Origin: Arthrobacter sp. SLBN-122
GTDB taxonomy: Bacteria; Actinomycetota; Actinomycetes; Actinomycetales; Micrococcaceae
Reading direction: 5' to 3'
Assembly (NCBI RefSeq): GCF_006715165.1
Contig: NZ_VFMS01000001.1
Location: 1,860,001-1,924,000, forward strand
Length of the DNA: 64,000 nt
Shown: in pieces, positions 16,170-43,600 of the stretch
Layout: every line of letters begins with the position of its first letter
Position numbering within the stretch: position 1 is the stretch's first letter
Program-made: the position numbers and the translations under genes
The notes under the pieces: model-generated
What the model was told of the DNA's origin: nothing
The model's input: the letters and a program-made list of their open reading frames with translations, nothing else
Database searches by the model: none

Positions 16170-16225
16170 TTGTCCACAGTCTTATCCACAAGCCGCCCGA
16201 CAGCTTATCCACACACTTATCCACA
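16170..16225 (+). other. Tandem DnaA-box cluster inside the parS array
   Basis: Three perfect DnaA boxes TTATCCACA (16182, 16205, 16217) and one TTGTCCACA (16170), all in the same orientation within 56 bp. Two more boxes, TTATCCACA at 16562 and TTCTCCACA at 16550, lie 330 bp downstream. This density equals that of the dnaA-dnaN region, 8-10 kb from the true origin. Confidence 0.8.
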
Positions 16226-16426
16226 CCTCTCCTGCTCTGTCAGGTTTGATGTTGGCGTCCGGGCTCCAGACTAAAACGCCGCAGCAGGTATCGTTACGTC
16301 GCATGTGGCAAGCTGCGCGCGACAGTTAGGACCGGGGTGCGCTGATACCTCGCAGGGGAGTAGCCGATTATCACGCTTTTCCAGTTGCTTTTCGGCGCCT
16401 AACCTGCATCCGCGGAGGTCGGCCGG

Positions 16427-16442
16427 TGTTTCACGTGAAACA
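16427..16442. other. parS: parS site 5 (perfect)
   Basis: Exact TGTTTCACGTGAAACA. It lies between the two groups of DnaA boxes. Confidence 0.95.
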
Positions 16443-17233
16443 AGACGGGGAAACGAGTAGCGCGAACACTTCGGGAGCAGAAGTGCAAGGGCAGCGGCTG
16501 GGATCGAAGCATTGTCCCTCGACTCACACATCGCTGGTTATACCCAAACTTCTCCACATTGTTATCCACAGGGATATCCACCGGTGAGATCGCCCACGTG
16601 CGGAGCGCCTGTTCGTTGATCCGGTAACTCAGAAGCGCGGTCCGCCAGCCGCCTCCGTCCTACGATGACATTCCTTAGCCCACATCAGGGCCCCCGGCTA
16701 GCTCGTCGCGTTCTAGTCGCTGCCTCATGAAGCCCCTGCTGGACTTGGGTCAGGAATGAGAAGCGTACTAACTCCGCGGACGCCGCCGCCACTCACCGTA
16801 CAACGTTCTTACCTCACTTCTCCATGCGCTGTCAGGCTCGCAGCTGGCTACGGCGGTAAATAGGTCACGATGGAGCGGAGAACACAATGCCTACGGCCTC
16901 GCCAATCATGTGCGCGCGTGAGCGCACGTCCTTCGGAGAAGTAGGGCGAGATGCAGGGTTAGCGTCGTCTCCGCCGTTGAGCGATTGTCGCCCCCACAGT
17001 GATCAGCCCGGCAGCCGGCCTTAACTCTCTGGGTGTTTAGGGGACAAATAGATCTTGGGGGAGACGAGGGGCCAGCCAGGGGATGATCAAGCATTGCGAT
17101 GGAAAAGAGCACTACAATCGCAGATAGCCGACAGACAAAACCCGTGTTGGAGCCGACAGTGCCGATATTGCTGAACGGACCCTGGCTGGTAAGCAACCGC
17201 ACGGTTATGGGAAGGAGCATGCTCAGCAGGAGC

Positions 17234-26049: not shown

Positions 26050-26587
26050 ATCCACATCGAGCCCGCTGCTCTATACCTTATTAACAGGGGCATGTGGATA
26101 AGGCTGTGGATAGTTAAGGGGACAAGCGCGGTTAATGGGCTTAAAACCCTTAAGGCGTCTGTGGATCGTTAAAAACAGGCCTTGGCGTTGTCCCCATCCA
26201 CACCCTGTTTAAAACCCAGTTAACGCACACTCCGTGAACAGGTCTTAACCGCGGAACGGCGGGGCAGGACCAGGTTATCCACAGTTTCCACAGCAGTTAT
26301 TAACACTACGAATCCCAAAAAATTGAATTCCCTCAAACAACAAGATCGATGCGGGTGTCCGACGAGGGGGCCTTCCGGCCCCAAAGCGGGCCGGACCGGA
26401 TCATGGGGGATGGGTTAATCCCGGATCTTCCGGCTAAGCTGTCAGCAGCGCTCCCATCCCTGGGTTTTTGTGTGGTTTCGGTCCGAACGGACCATGCACC
26501 AGCCAGGGTGCGCCCAACTTCTTCCGGAGTTTCCCCTCGAGATTCCCTGGTTTACATGGCAGCAGCAATGAAAGGCGGCACCCTTCC
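26050..26587. other. oriC: Origin of replication oriC (dnaA-dnaN intergenic region)
   Basis: The 538-bp spacer has DnaA boxes TGTGGATAA (26093), TGTGGATAG (26105), TGTGGATCG (26160), TTATCCACA (26275) and TTTCCACA (26285). It also has clustered TTAAC/GTTAA elements and AT-rich stretches such as 26287-26340 (including AAAAAATTGAATTCC), the richest A+T run around here and a candidate unwinding element. Position between dnaA and dnaN is the standard actinobacterial oriC. The right part (26341-26587) is the dnaN leader. Confidence 0.88.
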
Positions 26588-40616: not shown

Positions 40617-41495
40617 ATGAGTTACGGAATTCCGTCGGCCGAGCCGTCCGCCCAGGTTCCGGTCTGCCCCCGGCATCCGGACCGGCCGTCCTACGTGCGC
40701 TGCCAGCGCTGCGGGCGCCCGGCCTGCCCCGACTGCCAGCGGGCGGCCGCCGTCGGATTCCAATGCGTTGACTGCGTCAACGAAACAAAACGTACGACGC
40801 CGGAGGTGCGGACCGTCTATGGCGGTGCCGTTGCCACTGGCAGGCCATTGGTAACGTTCGGCATCATCGCAGCGTGCGCGGTGCTGTACGTGCTGCAGTG
40901 GCTGGTTCCCAATGACCTGATCTACCAGAGCCTCGGCTTTGCCAACGTATACGCGGAGCCCCGCTGGGGTGAGTTTGAACCCTGGCGGATGGTCACTTCC
41001 GCCTTCCTGCACTCGCAGGGCTTCATCCTGCACATCGCCCTGAACATGTACATGCTCTGGGTGTTCGGACAGGCCCTGGAGCCGCTTCTGGGACGCATAC
41101 GCTTCCTGGTGCTCTACCTTGTTTCGGCATTCGGCGGCTCTGTGGGCTATTTGCTCCTGACACCCCTGTATATGCCGGGTCAGCCGTTGTATGGCGTAGT
41201 GGGCGCCTCGGGAGCAATCTTCGGACTCTTTGGCGCGATGCTTCTCATTCAGCGCCACCGCGGCGGGGACACGCGCCAGCTGTGGGTGCTGATCGCCATC
41301 AACGGTGTCATCGGCTTCCTGATCCCCCAGATTGCCTGGCAGGCCCACCTGGGCGGCCTCGTGGCCGGCGGCCTGTGTGCTGCGGTCTTCGCCTACACCC
41401 CTCGTAGCCGCCGGCAGGGTCTGATCCAGGCTCTTGGTGTGGCAGCAGTGCTGGCGCTGCTCATAGCGGTGAGCTGGGTCCGCGTGACGCTATAG
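40617..41495 (+). CDS. Rhomboid-family intramembrane serine protease
   Basis: A 292-residue membrane protease with an N-terminal cysteine-rich zinc-ribbon (CPRHPD, CQRCGRPACPDC, FQCVDC; residues 18-55). Six membrane helices follow. The catalytic serine is in GASGAIFG (Ser198) and the catalytic histidine in AHLGG (His244); helix 1 carries HIALNMYMLWVFG. The same zinc-ribbon plus rhomboid layout is common in actinobacteria next to the cyclophilin gene. A strong terminator follows at 41518. Confidence 0.93.
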   Translation: MSYGIPSAEPSAQVPVCPRHPDRPSYVRCQRCGRPACPDCQRAAAVGFQCVDCVNETKRTTPEVRTVYGGAVATGRPLVTFGIIAACAVLYVLQWLVPNDLIYQSLGFANVYAEPRWGEFEPWRMVTSAFLHSQGFILHIALNMYMLWVFGQALEPLLGRIRFLVLYLVSAFGGSVGYLLLTPLYMPGQPLYGVVGASGAIFGLFGAMLLIQRHRGGDTRQLWVLIAINGVIGFLIPQIAWQAHLGGLVAGGLCAAVFAYTPRSRRQGLIQALGVAAVLALLIAVSWVRVTL

Positions 41496-41517
41496 CCCGC
41501 CGGCGCCTGTAGTTACC

Positions 41518-41560
41518 GATGCCCCCGACACCTTGCGGTGTCGGGGGCATCGTCGTTTTT
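41518..41560 (+). terminator. Rho-independent terminator of the cyclophilin-rhomboid unit
   Basis: GATGCCCCCGACACC (41518-41532) pairs perfectly with GGTGTCGGGGGCATC (41537-41551) around TTGC, followed by GTCGTTTTT. The T-run overlaps the first DnaA-box-like TTTTCCACA (41557). Confidence 0.92.
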
Positions 41561-41961
41561 CCACAGCGTTTATCCACAGTGTTGGTAACTTACACGGCTG
41601 TAGTTCACAGCATCGCCTCGCCATTCCCGGCCCCAGCGGGCCTTCGGGTGGAAGCTGGCGCTCGTTCTCCACATCTGTGGATAACCTGTGGGGATATCGC
41701 TGTGTGTAAGTGGATAAGCAGGGACGTTTTCCCGCCTTTTGTGGATACGGGGATGCAAAACGACGTCCAACGGCTGGTTTCACGGTTCCGCCTGCATGTT
41801 ATCGACACCCTTATACACAGTGTTAATAACTGACAGATGTGTAGTTCGAACGCTGGAAGTCCCACAGGAGTAGGCTGCAGCGCCGGCAAAAGGACGATTT
41901 CCACGGCTTTACCCACAGTTGTGGATAACTTGTGGGTATTGCGATGTTGGTAAGTGGATAA
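41557..41961. other. DnaA-box field, left part (oriC-distal)
   Basis: Perfect boxes: TTATCCACA (41570), TGTGGATAA (41676, 41920). Near matches: TTTTCCACA (41557), TTCTCCACA (41665), AGTGGATAA (41709, 41953), TGTGGATAC (41740), TTATCGACA (41799), TTATACACA (41811), TTACCCACA (41909), TGTGGGTAT (41931). Several are arranged as inverted pairs. No gene is visible in 41561-41990. Confidence 0.8.
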
Positions 41962-42033
41962 GTTGGCCCGCCGCCCGCGCGACTCCTGCCTATGATGGTT
42001 GCCTGCCAAGCCTTCCAAGCGACAAGGATCCCC

Positions 42034-42498
42034 GTGGGCGTCACCGAGCACCTGTACCTGGACAAACAGCATCCGGCCCTTTGGAAGGCGATCAGCGGCC
42101 TGGGCCTCAAGGTGCAGGAAGCAGCAGAGGAAGCCGGAATCGGACCCGGCCTGTTGGAACTCCTCAACGTCCGGATTTCGGAGCTTAACGGCTGCGCCTA
42201 CTGCCTCGACCTCCACGTGCGAAAGGCAGTCGAGGCAGGGGAAAGCGCGCAGCGGCTGGCGGTCCTGCCGGCATGGCGGGACACCGCACTCTTCACGGGC
42301 AAGGAGCGCGCAGCTCTGGCACTGGTGGAGAGCATCACGGAGCTCCCGGACCAGGAGTCACGCGAGCATGCCGAGGCCGCCGCGCGGGAGTGCCTGACGG
42401 CAGAGGAGTTTTCAGCGGTGAGTTGGGTTGCGGTGACCATGAACGCGTTCAACCGGGTCTCCATCACCAGCCACCACCCCGTGAAGCGGGACCGCTGA
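42034..42498 (+). CDS. Carboxymuconolactone decarboxylase / AhpD-like protein
   Basis: A 154-residue protein of the AhpD-like fold with the peroxidatic motif CAYCLDLH (about residues 51-58) in 'ELNGCAYCLDLHVRKAVEAG'. Such proteins use the CxxC pair and His for peroxide or disulfide chemistry; the substrate is unknown. I prefer GTG 42034, with AAGGA 5 nt upstream, over the more upstream ATG 41992, which has no ribosome binding site. The gene is enclosed by DnaA-box clusters on both sides. Confidence 0.82.
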   Translation: MGVTEHLYLDKQHPALWKAISGLGLKVQEAAEEAGIGPGLLELLNVRISELNGCAYCLDLHVRKAVEAGESAQRLAVLPAWRDTALFTGKERAALALVESITELPDQESREHAEAAARECLTAEEFSAVSWVAVTMNAFNRVSITSHHPVKRDR

Positions 42499-42546
42499 CA
42501 GCGTCCCAAATCGCAAGCAGGAAGTTCACGCAGTCCGTCCTGACGT

Positions 42547-42694
42547 TTATCCACAGGTATTCCACACTGTTAATAACGGCATCTGCCCGACCGTTTAACT
42601 GGATCGGCATTGCCCGGCCAGTCAAACGCTCCGTTTTAAGCCCCCTGATGAGCTTTTCCACACTGTGGATAACTTTCCCAACAGTTGGGGATAA
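42547..42694. other. DnaA-box field, right part
   Basis: TTATCCACA (42547) and TGTGGATAA (42664) are perfect; TATTCCACA (42558), TTTTCCACA (42654) and TGGGGATAA (42686) are near matches. TGTTAATAA (42568) repeats the sequence found at 41821. The stretch lies between the AhpD-like gene and the 3' end of tag. Confidence 0.78.
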
Positions 42695-42716
42695 CCGCAT
42701 TCATACCGGGAACGTA

Positions 42717-43322
42717 CTATCCGGACCAGATGCCGGACGATCCACGGCGGTGGCTGCCCAGAAGGTGGGTATCCACCATTCCCACAGCCTCCATCAGGGC
42801 AAACATGGTGGTGGGTCCCACAAAGGAAAAGCCGCGCTTCCGCAATGCCTTGGATAAGGCAACCGACTCCCTGGACTGGGTGGGGATCTCGGCAGCCACC
42901 CTCGGCCGCGGGGTGCTGTCCGGGGCGAAGCCCCATACAAAGTCCACCAGCCCGCCGTCGTTCCTTAACTCCAGCGTGGCTTGGGCATTCCTGATCGTGG
43001 CAAGGATCTTCAGCCGGTTCCTGATGATGCCCGGATCCTGCATTAGCCGCTCCACGTCCGTGCTGCCAAAGAGCGCCACAGCTTCCGGATCGAACGCTGC
43101 GAAGGCGGCACGGAACGCGGGACGCTTCCGCAGGATGGTGGCCCATGAAAGTCCTGCCTGGAAGCCCTCCAGGCAGATGCGCTCGTACAGGCCCTGCTCG
43201 TCAGTGACGGGCAGGCCCCATTCCTGGTCGTAGTAGTTCCGCATGAGCGGATCCGAGGCAGCCCACGCCGGGCGGGCCAGGCCGTCCTCGCCGATGATTA
43301 CTCCGGCGGAATCGGGAGCCAG
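42717..43322 (-). CDS. tag: DNA-3-methyladenine glycosylase I, probable CTG start
   Basis: Removes 3-methyladenine from DNA. A core of about 200 residues: ARPAWAASDPLMRNYYDQEW, ERICLEGFQAGLSWATIL with the catalytic Glu and base-stacking residues, GIIRNRLKILATIRNA, and FSFVGPTTMFALMEAVGMVDTHLLG. The zinc-binding Cys/His residues of E. coli Tag are not evident at either end. No ATG, GTG or TTG lies near the expected start; a CTG at 43322-43320 has AAGGAG 7 nt upstream, which suggests a CTG initiator. Without it, the frame would have to start inside crgA. Confidence 0.88.
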   Translation of the reverse strand: MAPDSAGVIIGEDGLARPAWAASDPLMRNYYDQEWGLPVTDEQGLYERICLEGFQAGLSWATILRKRPAFRAAFAAFDPEAVALFGSTDVERLMQDPGIIRNRLKILATIRNAQATLELRNDGGLVDFVWGFAPDSTPRPRVAAEIPTQSRESVALSKALRKRGFSFVGPTTMFALMEAVGMVDTHLLGSHRRGSSGIWSG

Positions 43323-43348
43323 TGCAGTTCTCCTTGGAAGGTCCGCGG

Positions 43349-43600
43349 CTAGGAGCGCCAGCGGGTGGTCATCAGGAAGCCCACGATCGCGATGCCAAAG
43401 CCGGCCACGATGTTCCACGATTCCCAGGCCTGCACCGGGAAGCGGCCCTCACTGATGTAGAAGGTAATGATCCAGAAGAGGCCAATAATCATGAGGCCAA
43501 ACATGACCGGCTTGAACCACACGGGGTTGGGCTTGTAGGCCTGGGGGGAAGCCGGTTGGGCGGTGCTGGCGGTCTTCTTGCGAGGCTTTGACTCGGGCAC
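43349..43600 (-). CDS. crgA: Cell division protein CrgA
   Basis: An 83-residue protein with a basic cytoplasmic N-terminus (MPESKPRKKTAS), two membrane helices (about 34-53 and 62-79), and the conserved NPVWFKPVMFGLMIIGLFWI and VAGFGIAIVGFLMTTRWR segments. CrgA stabilises the divisome and coordinates growth and septation in actinobacteria. Its location between tag and the class E sortase, near the pknB operon, matches the usual order. Confidence 0.95.
   Translation of the reverse strand: MPESKPRKKTASTAQPASPQAYKPNPVWFKPVMFGLMIIGLFWIITFYISEGRFPVQAWESWNIVAGFGIAIVGFLMTTRWRS

Follow-up and report, generated by a model that had tools for sequence, protein, structure and literature searches.

What is a second dense field of DnaA boxes doing so close to the replication origin of an Arthrobacter chromosome? 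The question is raised by a stretch of 64,000 nucleotides from Arthrobacter sp. SLBN-122 (contig NZ_VFMS01000001.1, positions 1,860,001 to 1,924,000; this whole stretch is called the window below), in which sites for the replication initiator DnaA crowd the two intergenic regions around a gene for an AhpD-like protein. We conclude, with a probability of roughly 0.72, that the Actinomycetes share an ancient control element, bound by DnaA, which follows a rhomboid gene and adjoins the 3′ end of crgA, and that the field is its Micrococcaceae form, in three tandem copies. This element is probably a switch that tunes DnaA. The boxes, their register, their conservation and their place were observed directly, and are described first. 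The field itself is defined as follows.

41557-42694, DnaA-box field, 1.14 kb, two intergenic parts around the AhpD-like gene (recognised in the sequence)

DnaA boxes were scored as TTRTCCACA (the exact count includes TTATCCACA), and near boxes as sites with at most one mismatch to it. The five perfect boxes reported in a preliminary description of this DNA were all recovered (41570+, 41676-, 41920-, 42547+, 42664-), and the "at least ten" near matches that it mentioned came to ten one-mismatch boxes, that is, 15 near boxes overall. It had also placed TGTTAATAA in both halves of the field, and this sequence was found at 41821 and 42568; on the opposite strand it reads TTATTAACA, a weak box. 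The window as a whole contains 13 exact boxes, compared to 0.44 in dinucleotide shuffles, and 56 sites with at most one mismatch, compared to 14.0. Genome-wide, exact TTATCCACA occurs 35 times in 4.47 Mb, 5 of these inside the field, and sites with at most one mismatch number 1138, versus 703 for a reversed control motif. From this last rate (1138/4.47 Mb) about 0.3 near boxes are expected per 1.14 kb, and 15 were observed; the field thus stands well above the genome background, a density no higher than which would, according to the preliminary description, have spoken against it. Across 400 kb of sampled genome, no 1138-bp segment exceeded 3 near boxes in 19 of 20 stretches, while the maximum in the remaining one (L058) was 8. 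Permuted motifs matched the field 0.24 times on average, the highest score (9) being that of the box shifted by one base and the next one 3. Chance was rejected as the source of the field on the shuffles, the permuted motifs and the background sample.

The boxes follow a composite pattern. Unit A combines two boxes (-33 and -20), a third in inverted orientation (-10) and the palindrome TNACACNNGTGTNA at position 0, to which some copies add an inverted box at +23. Unit B opens with two boxes head to head and starts 107-110 bp after each unit A (41665, 41909, 42654). The field is composed of three such A-B copies, with a repeat period of 241-244, the AhpD-like gene being lodged between copies 2 and 3:

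41557..41606, + strand, unit A1: boxes 41557+ (TTTTCCACA), 41570+ (TTATCCACA) and 41580- (TTACCAACA)
41590-41603, unit A1 palindrome: TTACACGGCTGTAG, two mismatches, then TTC
41665..41748, + strand, unit B1: 41665+/41676- head to head, 41689- weak, 41709-, 41740-
41799..41847, + strand, unit A2: boxes 41799+ (TTATCGACA), 41811+ (TTATACACA) and 41821- (TTATTAACA)
41831-41844, unit A2 palindrome: TGACAGATGTGTAG, two mismatches, then TTC
41909..41961, + strand, unit B2: 41909+/41920- head to head, 41931- weak, 41953-
42547..42576, + strand, unit A3, degenerate: boxes 42547+, 42558+ (two mismatches) and 42568- (TTATTAACA)
42654..42694, + strand, unit B3: 42654+/42664- head to head with a 1-bp gap, 42686-

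Head-to-head pairs open each unit B (41665/41676, 41909/41920, 42654/42664). A2 repeats A1 at a spacing of 241, and B2 repeats B1 at a spacing of 244, with 82% identity over 50 nt; the palindrome of A3 is lost beyond recognition. Aligned over 45 rows, A1 is conserved at 95-99% in its box columns and 85% in its palindrome, B1 at 79-98% and B2 at 85-100%. Many loci of the class have a unit A whose middle box is reversed (+ - - rather than + + -), with offsets near 10 and 13.

Conservation of the place was examined at increasing distance. The crgA loci of 60 genomes of the family were taken, 42 of which carried rhomboid and crgA on the same stretch and were compared; of the 18 left out, 17 lacked rhomboid on the stretch and 1 had no crgA match. 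Between the two genes, all 42 relatives had 3-18 near boxes and 41 had an exact box, the interval measuring 0.25 to 10 kb, so that the long ones may include chance boxes. A genus set consisted of 80 Arthrobacter/Pseudarthrobacter loci (nearest CrgA loci), 74 of them with rhomboid on the stretch, and boxes were kept in all 74 (9-19 each, median 13; exact boxes 3-10). Further out, 60 additional loci (20 of the order, 40 of the class) were scored by comparing the 450 bp lying 3′ of crgA with the remaining 1.12 Mb. Exact boxes numbered 48 in the former (1.78 per kb) and 22 in the latter (0.02 per kb), an enrichment of about 90 fold; 34 of the 60 loci had an exact box 3′ of crgA, 52 had at least one near box, and 8 had none. 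The association conserved across the class is with the rhomboid-crgA interval.

Conservation is also concentrated on the boxes themselves. Among 44 relatives possessing the AhpD-like gene plus our own sequence, per-column majority identity was 92% in boxes, 81% in palindromes and 52% in the rest, a difference that was never reached when the column mask was shifted circularly (0 of 439 shifts). Weak boxes were as conserved as strong ones (98% for TTATTAACA, 96% for TTACCAACA), which favours an ordered complex over a mere pile of strong sites.

Allowing one mismatch, 68 copies of the palindrome lie beside field boxes, spread over 57 of 120 loci (2.33 per kb), compared to 13 copies (0.006 per kb) in the DNA outside both these places and the dnaA flanks. 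Control palindromes with other gaps or permuted letters reached 0 to 0.10 per kb beside boxes, and on these rates the alternative spacings were rejected, including one resembling a BldD site. The family offers a fairer test, and there the palindrome was present in the interval of 34 of 42 relatives, in one of which (L082) it lies far from any box. Under a looser rule, unit A was recognised in 58 of 80 genus loci and in 138 of 200 loci in total. Around 43 palindromes of the family loci and our own, boxes accumulate at -20+ (28), -33+ (23), -10- (10) and +23- (9); around 29 palindromes of the order and class, at -33/-32+ (14) and -10/-9- (9).

A sequence-only model (R1), built from 43 unit A sequences, was next run over whole genomes. 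In our own genome every match with an expectation value (E) better than 0.1 lies in the field, led by A1 (E 8.5e-13) and A2 (E 1.6e-7), with B3 at 0.006 and A3 at 0.011; the best match outside has an E of 0.16. At a threshold of 1e-3 the model matched 104 of 148 genomes of the class. The best match lay within 2.5 kb 3′ of crgA in all 13 genomes from which the model had drawn its units. The same held for 72 of 91 matching genomes that had given it no sequence; within these 91, the previously unexamined genomes gave 44 out of 55. Among the 85 crgA-linked matches, 68 units are oriented against crgA. A sample of the phylum gave matches in 27 of 119 genomes, 9 of the class and 18 of other classes, which are counts and not per-class rates; matches in the other classes, scored for presence and apart from crgA linkage, were mostly weaker (best 3.6e-7).

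The preliminary description had tied the field to the AhpD-like gene. This link did not hold. The gene is present in 45 of the 74 genus loci with rhomboid and absent from 29, all of which retain the field (in several of them, L195 and L228 among others, A-B pair 3 sits nearer to pair 2). Only 2 of the 60 family genomes, the two members of the same genus, gave a tblastn match, and none was obtained at E 1e-6 on the stretches of 40 family relatives of other genera carrying rhomboid and crgA. No DnaA box lies inside the gene. A special link was therefore rejected, and the gene looks like a passenger within the field. What stands of the earlier interpretation is a second DnaA-box field outside oriC (the chromosomal origin), denser than background and probably concerned with DnaA control. 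The genes around it are:

40617..41495, + strand, rhomboid-family gene (PF01694), left neighbour
41992..42498, + strand, AhpD-like/carboxymuconolactone decarboxylase gene (PF02627)
42717..43418, - strand, tag, DNA-3-methyladenine glycosylase gene (PF03352), between the field and crgA in the genus
43349..43600, - strand, crgA, cell-division gene (PF06781), right anchor of the conserved interval

The gene order reads dnaA, dnaN, recF-like, gyrB, gyrA, two tRNAs, ppiA, rhomboid, left half of the field, AhpD-like, right half, tag, crgA, sortase, with the names from dnaA to gyrA assigned from position and order alone; tag was present in all 74 genus loci with rhomboid.

The place itself is partly known. 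Rv0011c of Mycobacterium tuberculosis is crgA, and a DnaA-box cluster with a palindrome occupies the same place 3′ of it. In a study of this species, the five regions most enriched for DnaA in vitro are oriC, rpmH-dnaA, Rv0057 upstream of dnaB, Rv3843c-RVnc0040 and Rv0010c-Rv0011c, and chromatin immunoprecipitation followed by sequencing in M. smegmatis found DnaA at the homologues of the same five (PMC7738170). The same study relates that the palindrome at Rv0010c-Rv0011c gathers independent mutations in clinical strains, and that variants of it make cells longer, an effect shared with dnaA variants (PMC7738170). As the same place is a demonstrated DnaA-binding site in mycobacteria (PMC7738170), part of our finding was already known. 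The Arthrobacter field likewise lies in the gap 3′ of crgA towards ppiA and rhomboid, with tag intervening, and combines a box cluster with palindromes, its own being two mismatches from the consensus. In three class loci of family f22, whose size and gene order suggest mycobacteria, the register of unit A recurs with the -33 box, weak boxes and the palindrome (for example TCACACGCGTGTGA). The two differ in that one unit was seen at the mycobacterial site, versus three A-B pairs in the Arthrobacter field, and in that the parts of the source consulted describe no fixed register or counterpart in other bacteria (PMC7738170); for Rv3843c-RVnc0040 and Rv0010c-Rv0011c its authors see no obvious correspondence in other bacterial species (PMC7738170). 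Our own genome has a separate cluster directly upstream of dnaB (L058:7372-7831, G000:C1:1829371-1829830), with 8 near boxes including 2 exact ones; one of the mycobacterial DnaA sites is likewise upstream of dnaB (PMC7738170).

Resemblance to the Escherichia coli and Streptomyces loci was also considered, datA and the Streptomyces clusters having been invoked in the preliminary description. Like datA, the field is a box cluster outside oriC, in an intergenic gap not far from the origin; datA however requires a site for integration host factor (IHF) between its boxes (PMC4585315, PMC5742627). The core of the E. coli DnaA-reactivating sequences (DARS) is described as three boxes, one facing two, with a head-to-head pair (PMC5742627, PMC8682772). 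Units A and B both contain three core boxes with box I opposite II and III. The E. coli spacing was measured on the one triple of this kind in each E. coli stretch, identified as DARS1 or DARS2 from its position and box layout. In box arrangement the field is thus nearer to the DARS core than to datA, with another spacing, and the datA likeness is unproven; because the spacing differs, we did not file the field as a DARS. The likeness to DARS1/DARS2 is one of box arrangement, ADP release being known for the E. coli DARS. In Streptomyces coelicolor, the H69 and D78 clusters, attributed to Smulczyk-Krawczyszyn and colleagues (2006), are said to lie near oriC and to affect initiation, and deletion of D78 reportedly raised it. 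Four loci of family f37, Streptomyces-like in size, each carry 3 exact boxes in their rhomboid-crgA interval, with the difference that unit A is weak or absent in the f37 genomes listed.

How might such an element work? DnaA would occupy the strong boxes and, together with the conserved weak boxes held in fixed register, could build an ordered complex, while the palindrome, at its fixed distance, would be either a weak DnaA pair or a site for a partner protein. The field would be copied soon after initiation, and the complex may then alter the amount of active DnaA reaching oriC. The DnaA domain I dimer, conserved across Actinomycetes (PMC13270200), would suit such an ordered assembly. As for direction, we lean, tentatively, towards help for DnaA by a DARS-like exchange of bound ADP rather than restraint by datA-like inactivation or titration, which we regard as possible but less easily defended. 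Help is suggested by the DARS-like head-to-head pair and one-facing-two arrangement, and by mycobacterial variants resembling weak dnaA alleles. More speculatively, the field could be an element of the Actinomycetes' own at crgA, a functional counterpart of datA and DARS, on which DnaA would act with a putative partner binding TNACACNNGTGTNA. In several genomes this palindrome sits next to nrdR or ribonucleotide reductase genes, flanked by NrdR-like sites, so the partner may tie DnaA activity to the supply of DNA precursors.

Several explanations compete with a control element. The field could be an origin-proximal sink that only binds up or inactivates DnaA after duplication, in the manner of datA or by plain titration, so that its loss would bring extra initiation, as reportedly happened on deletion of D78 in Streptomyces. 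We find this conceivable but rather doubtful: the field has 15 near boxes (5 exact), compared to a total of 9 (3 exact) over both flanks of dnaA, would double early at 15.3 kb from the dnaA-dnaN boxes (the 15 kb given earlier), and exists in several A-B copies in many Micrococcaceae, but plain titration needs neither conserved weak boxes nor fixed spacing, and the mycobacterial counterpart acts like a helper (PMC7738170). Much less probable is local gene control, in which DnaA bound here would act on one of the nearby genes (AhpD-like, rhomboid, tag or crgA). In unit B2 the final box (41953-41961) does end 30 bp ahead of the listed start of the AhpD-like gene, but that gene is missing from more than a third of field-keeping loci (29/74), rhomboid, tag and crgA all turn their 3′ ends, not their starts, towards the field, and a scan of 41400-42800, by consensus only, gave no sigma-70-like promoter. 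Expression of both neighbours of Rv0010c-Rv0011c is moreover unchanged in dnaA mutants (PMC7738170).

A second, separate part of the origin, or a spare one, is very improbable. The AT content of the field parts (0.45-0.48) resembles that of the dnaA-dnaN gap (0.46), the weak box TTATTAACA is also present twice in the dnaA-dnaN region, and groups made of a head-to-head pair and a tandem box occur at the dnaA flanks of relatives as well. The field is nevertheless 15 kb away from the dnaA-dnaN gap, which has boxes as well as an AT-rich stretch in the usual place, and on this ground the idea was rejected:

26050..26467, + strand, dnaA-dnaN intergenic part of oriC: 4 near boxes, 2 exact, AT-rich stretch at 26298

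Equally remote is the idea that the boxes belong to another protein with a DnaA-like motif. It would account for the recurrence of the palindrome with an inverted box-like half beside nrdR or ribonucleotide reductase genes; it is the full TTRTCCACA word, however, that is enriched 3′ of crgA, and DnaA itself binds the mycobacterial counterpart (PMC7738170).

Some observations weigh against an ancient DnaA control element at crgA, or against help as its direction. Binding of DnaA at the Arthrobacter field is predicted from the sequence alone. The model found no match at E 1e-3 in 44 of the 148 class genomes, and 19 best matches were not linked to crgA: 8 belong to family f44 (genomes of 1.3-1.5 Mb, among them G138 with locus L150), where unit A is strong (E 1.8e-7 to 9.2e-15) and away from crgA, 5 are on another contig than crgA, 1 is in a genome without a crgA match, and 5 are distant on the same contig. 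Seventeen of the crgA-linked units run along crgA. Among the genomes listed of the large, Streptomyces-like family f37, 4 of 7 had no match and 3 of 7 a weak one, one of these at crgA. The palindrome also occurs at dnaA flanks (4 copies, 0.20 per kb), its class counts are not independent because it was first seen in class loci and in the window, and it is worn in the genus, where both own copies have two mismatches and only 24 of 80 loci have a copy with at most one. The core spacing differs from that of DARS (offsets of 14 and 12 in the E. coli triples versus 10-12 and 12-13 here). Nearness to oriC and growth in copy number agree with restraint no less than with help, and were weighed in favour of restraint. 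Finally, the helper role in mycobacteria is deduced from cell length and drug response, the replication initiation rate being reported as unchanged (PMC7738170).

What is already known is that DnaA sites exist outside origins, as a kind, and that the mycobacterial site occupies this place. Three things are new as far as the searched literature shows, namely the conservation across the class, the palindrome-bearing composite unit of fixed build, and the tandem repetition in Micrococcaceae; no description of the class-wide conservation or of unit A was found there, most subscription papers lying outside its scope. Restraint and recharging of DnaA are poorly known in actinobacteria, a group that includes antibiotic producers and major pathogens. 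A mycobacterial DnaA site said to have no obvious counterpart elsewhere now appears as widespread in the class and of fixed build. The element provides a defined sequence for deletion or rebuilding, a harmless genus with an enlarged form, and a palindrome to use as bait for a partner protein.

Other features deserve mention. A hairpin precedes the field:

41517..41552, + strand, intrinsic-terminator-like hairpin after the rhomboid gene, 16-bp stem, T-tract entering the first box

Because hairpins of this kind recur in no more than 24 of 74 genus loci and in 4 of 43 family loci (with our own among them), a conserved terminator ahead of the field was rejected, and the hairpin is not a fixed part of the element. 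A known RNA in the field was likewise rejected, the Rfam gathering matches in the window being three tRNAs only.

NrdR sites are made of CCACA...TGTGG halves. Half of unit A, the inverted box with the palindrome, was seen next to nrdR or to genes for class II ribonucleotide reductase at L259, L260, L262 and L268, and the same arrangement, judged by the DNA letters themselves, at L261, L263 and L269; these nrd-adjacent halves lie between two NrdR-like sites. At L266 and L267, palindromes of our own genome outside the field, Pfam recognised no adjacent nrd gene. In a member of the order (L130), the 1138 bp from 15931 hold 21 near boxes between rhomboid and crgA, above the 15 of the field (coordinates are turned, crgA being on the minus strand). 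In two f37 genomes a strong box cluster with 4 exact boxes each (L264:1804-2107 and L265:1787-2090) lies 85-96 kb from dnaA, on the side opposite crgA; it is flanked in L264 by prephenate dehydratase and seryl-tRNA synthetase genes, and is perhaps the published Streptomyces D78 cluster. The window itself contains a third cluster, at 16170-16570 on the other side of dnaA, with 5 exact TTRTCCACA in two groups, between which, near 16430, lies a parS-like TTTCACGTGAAA.
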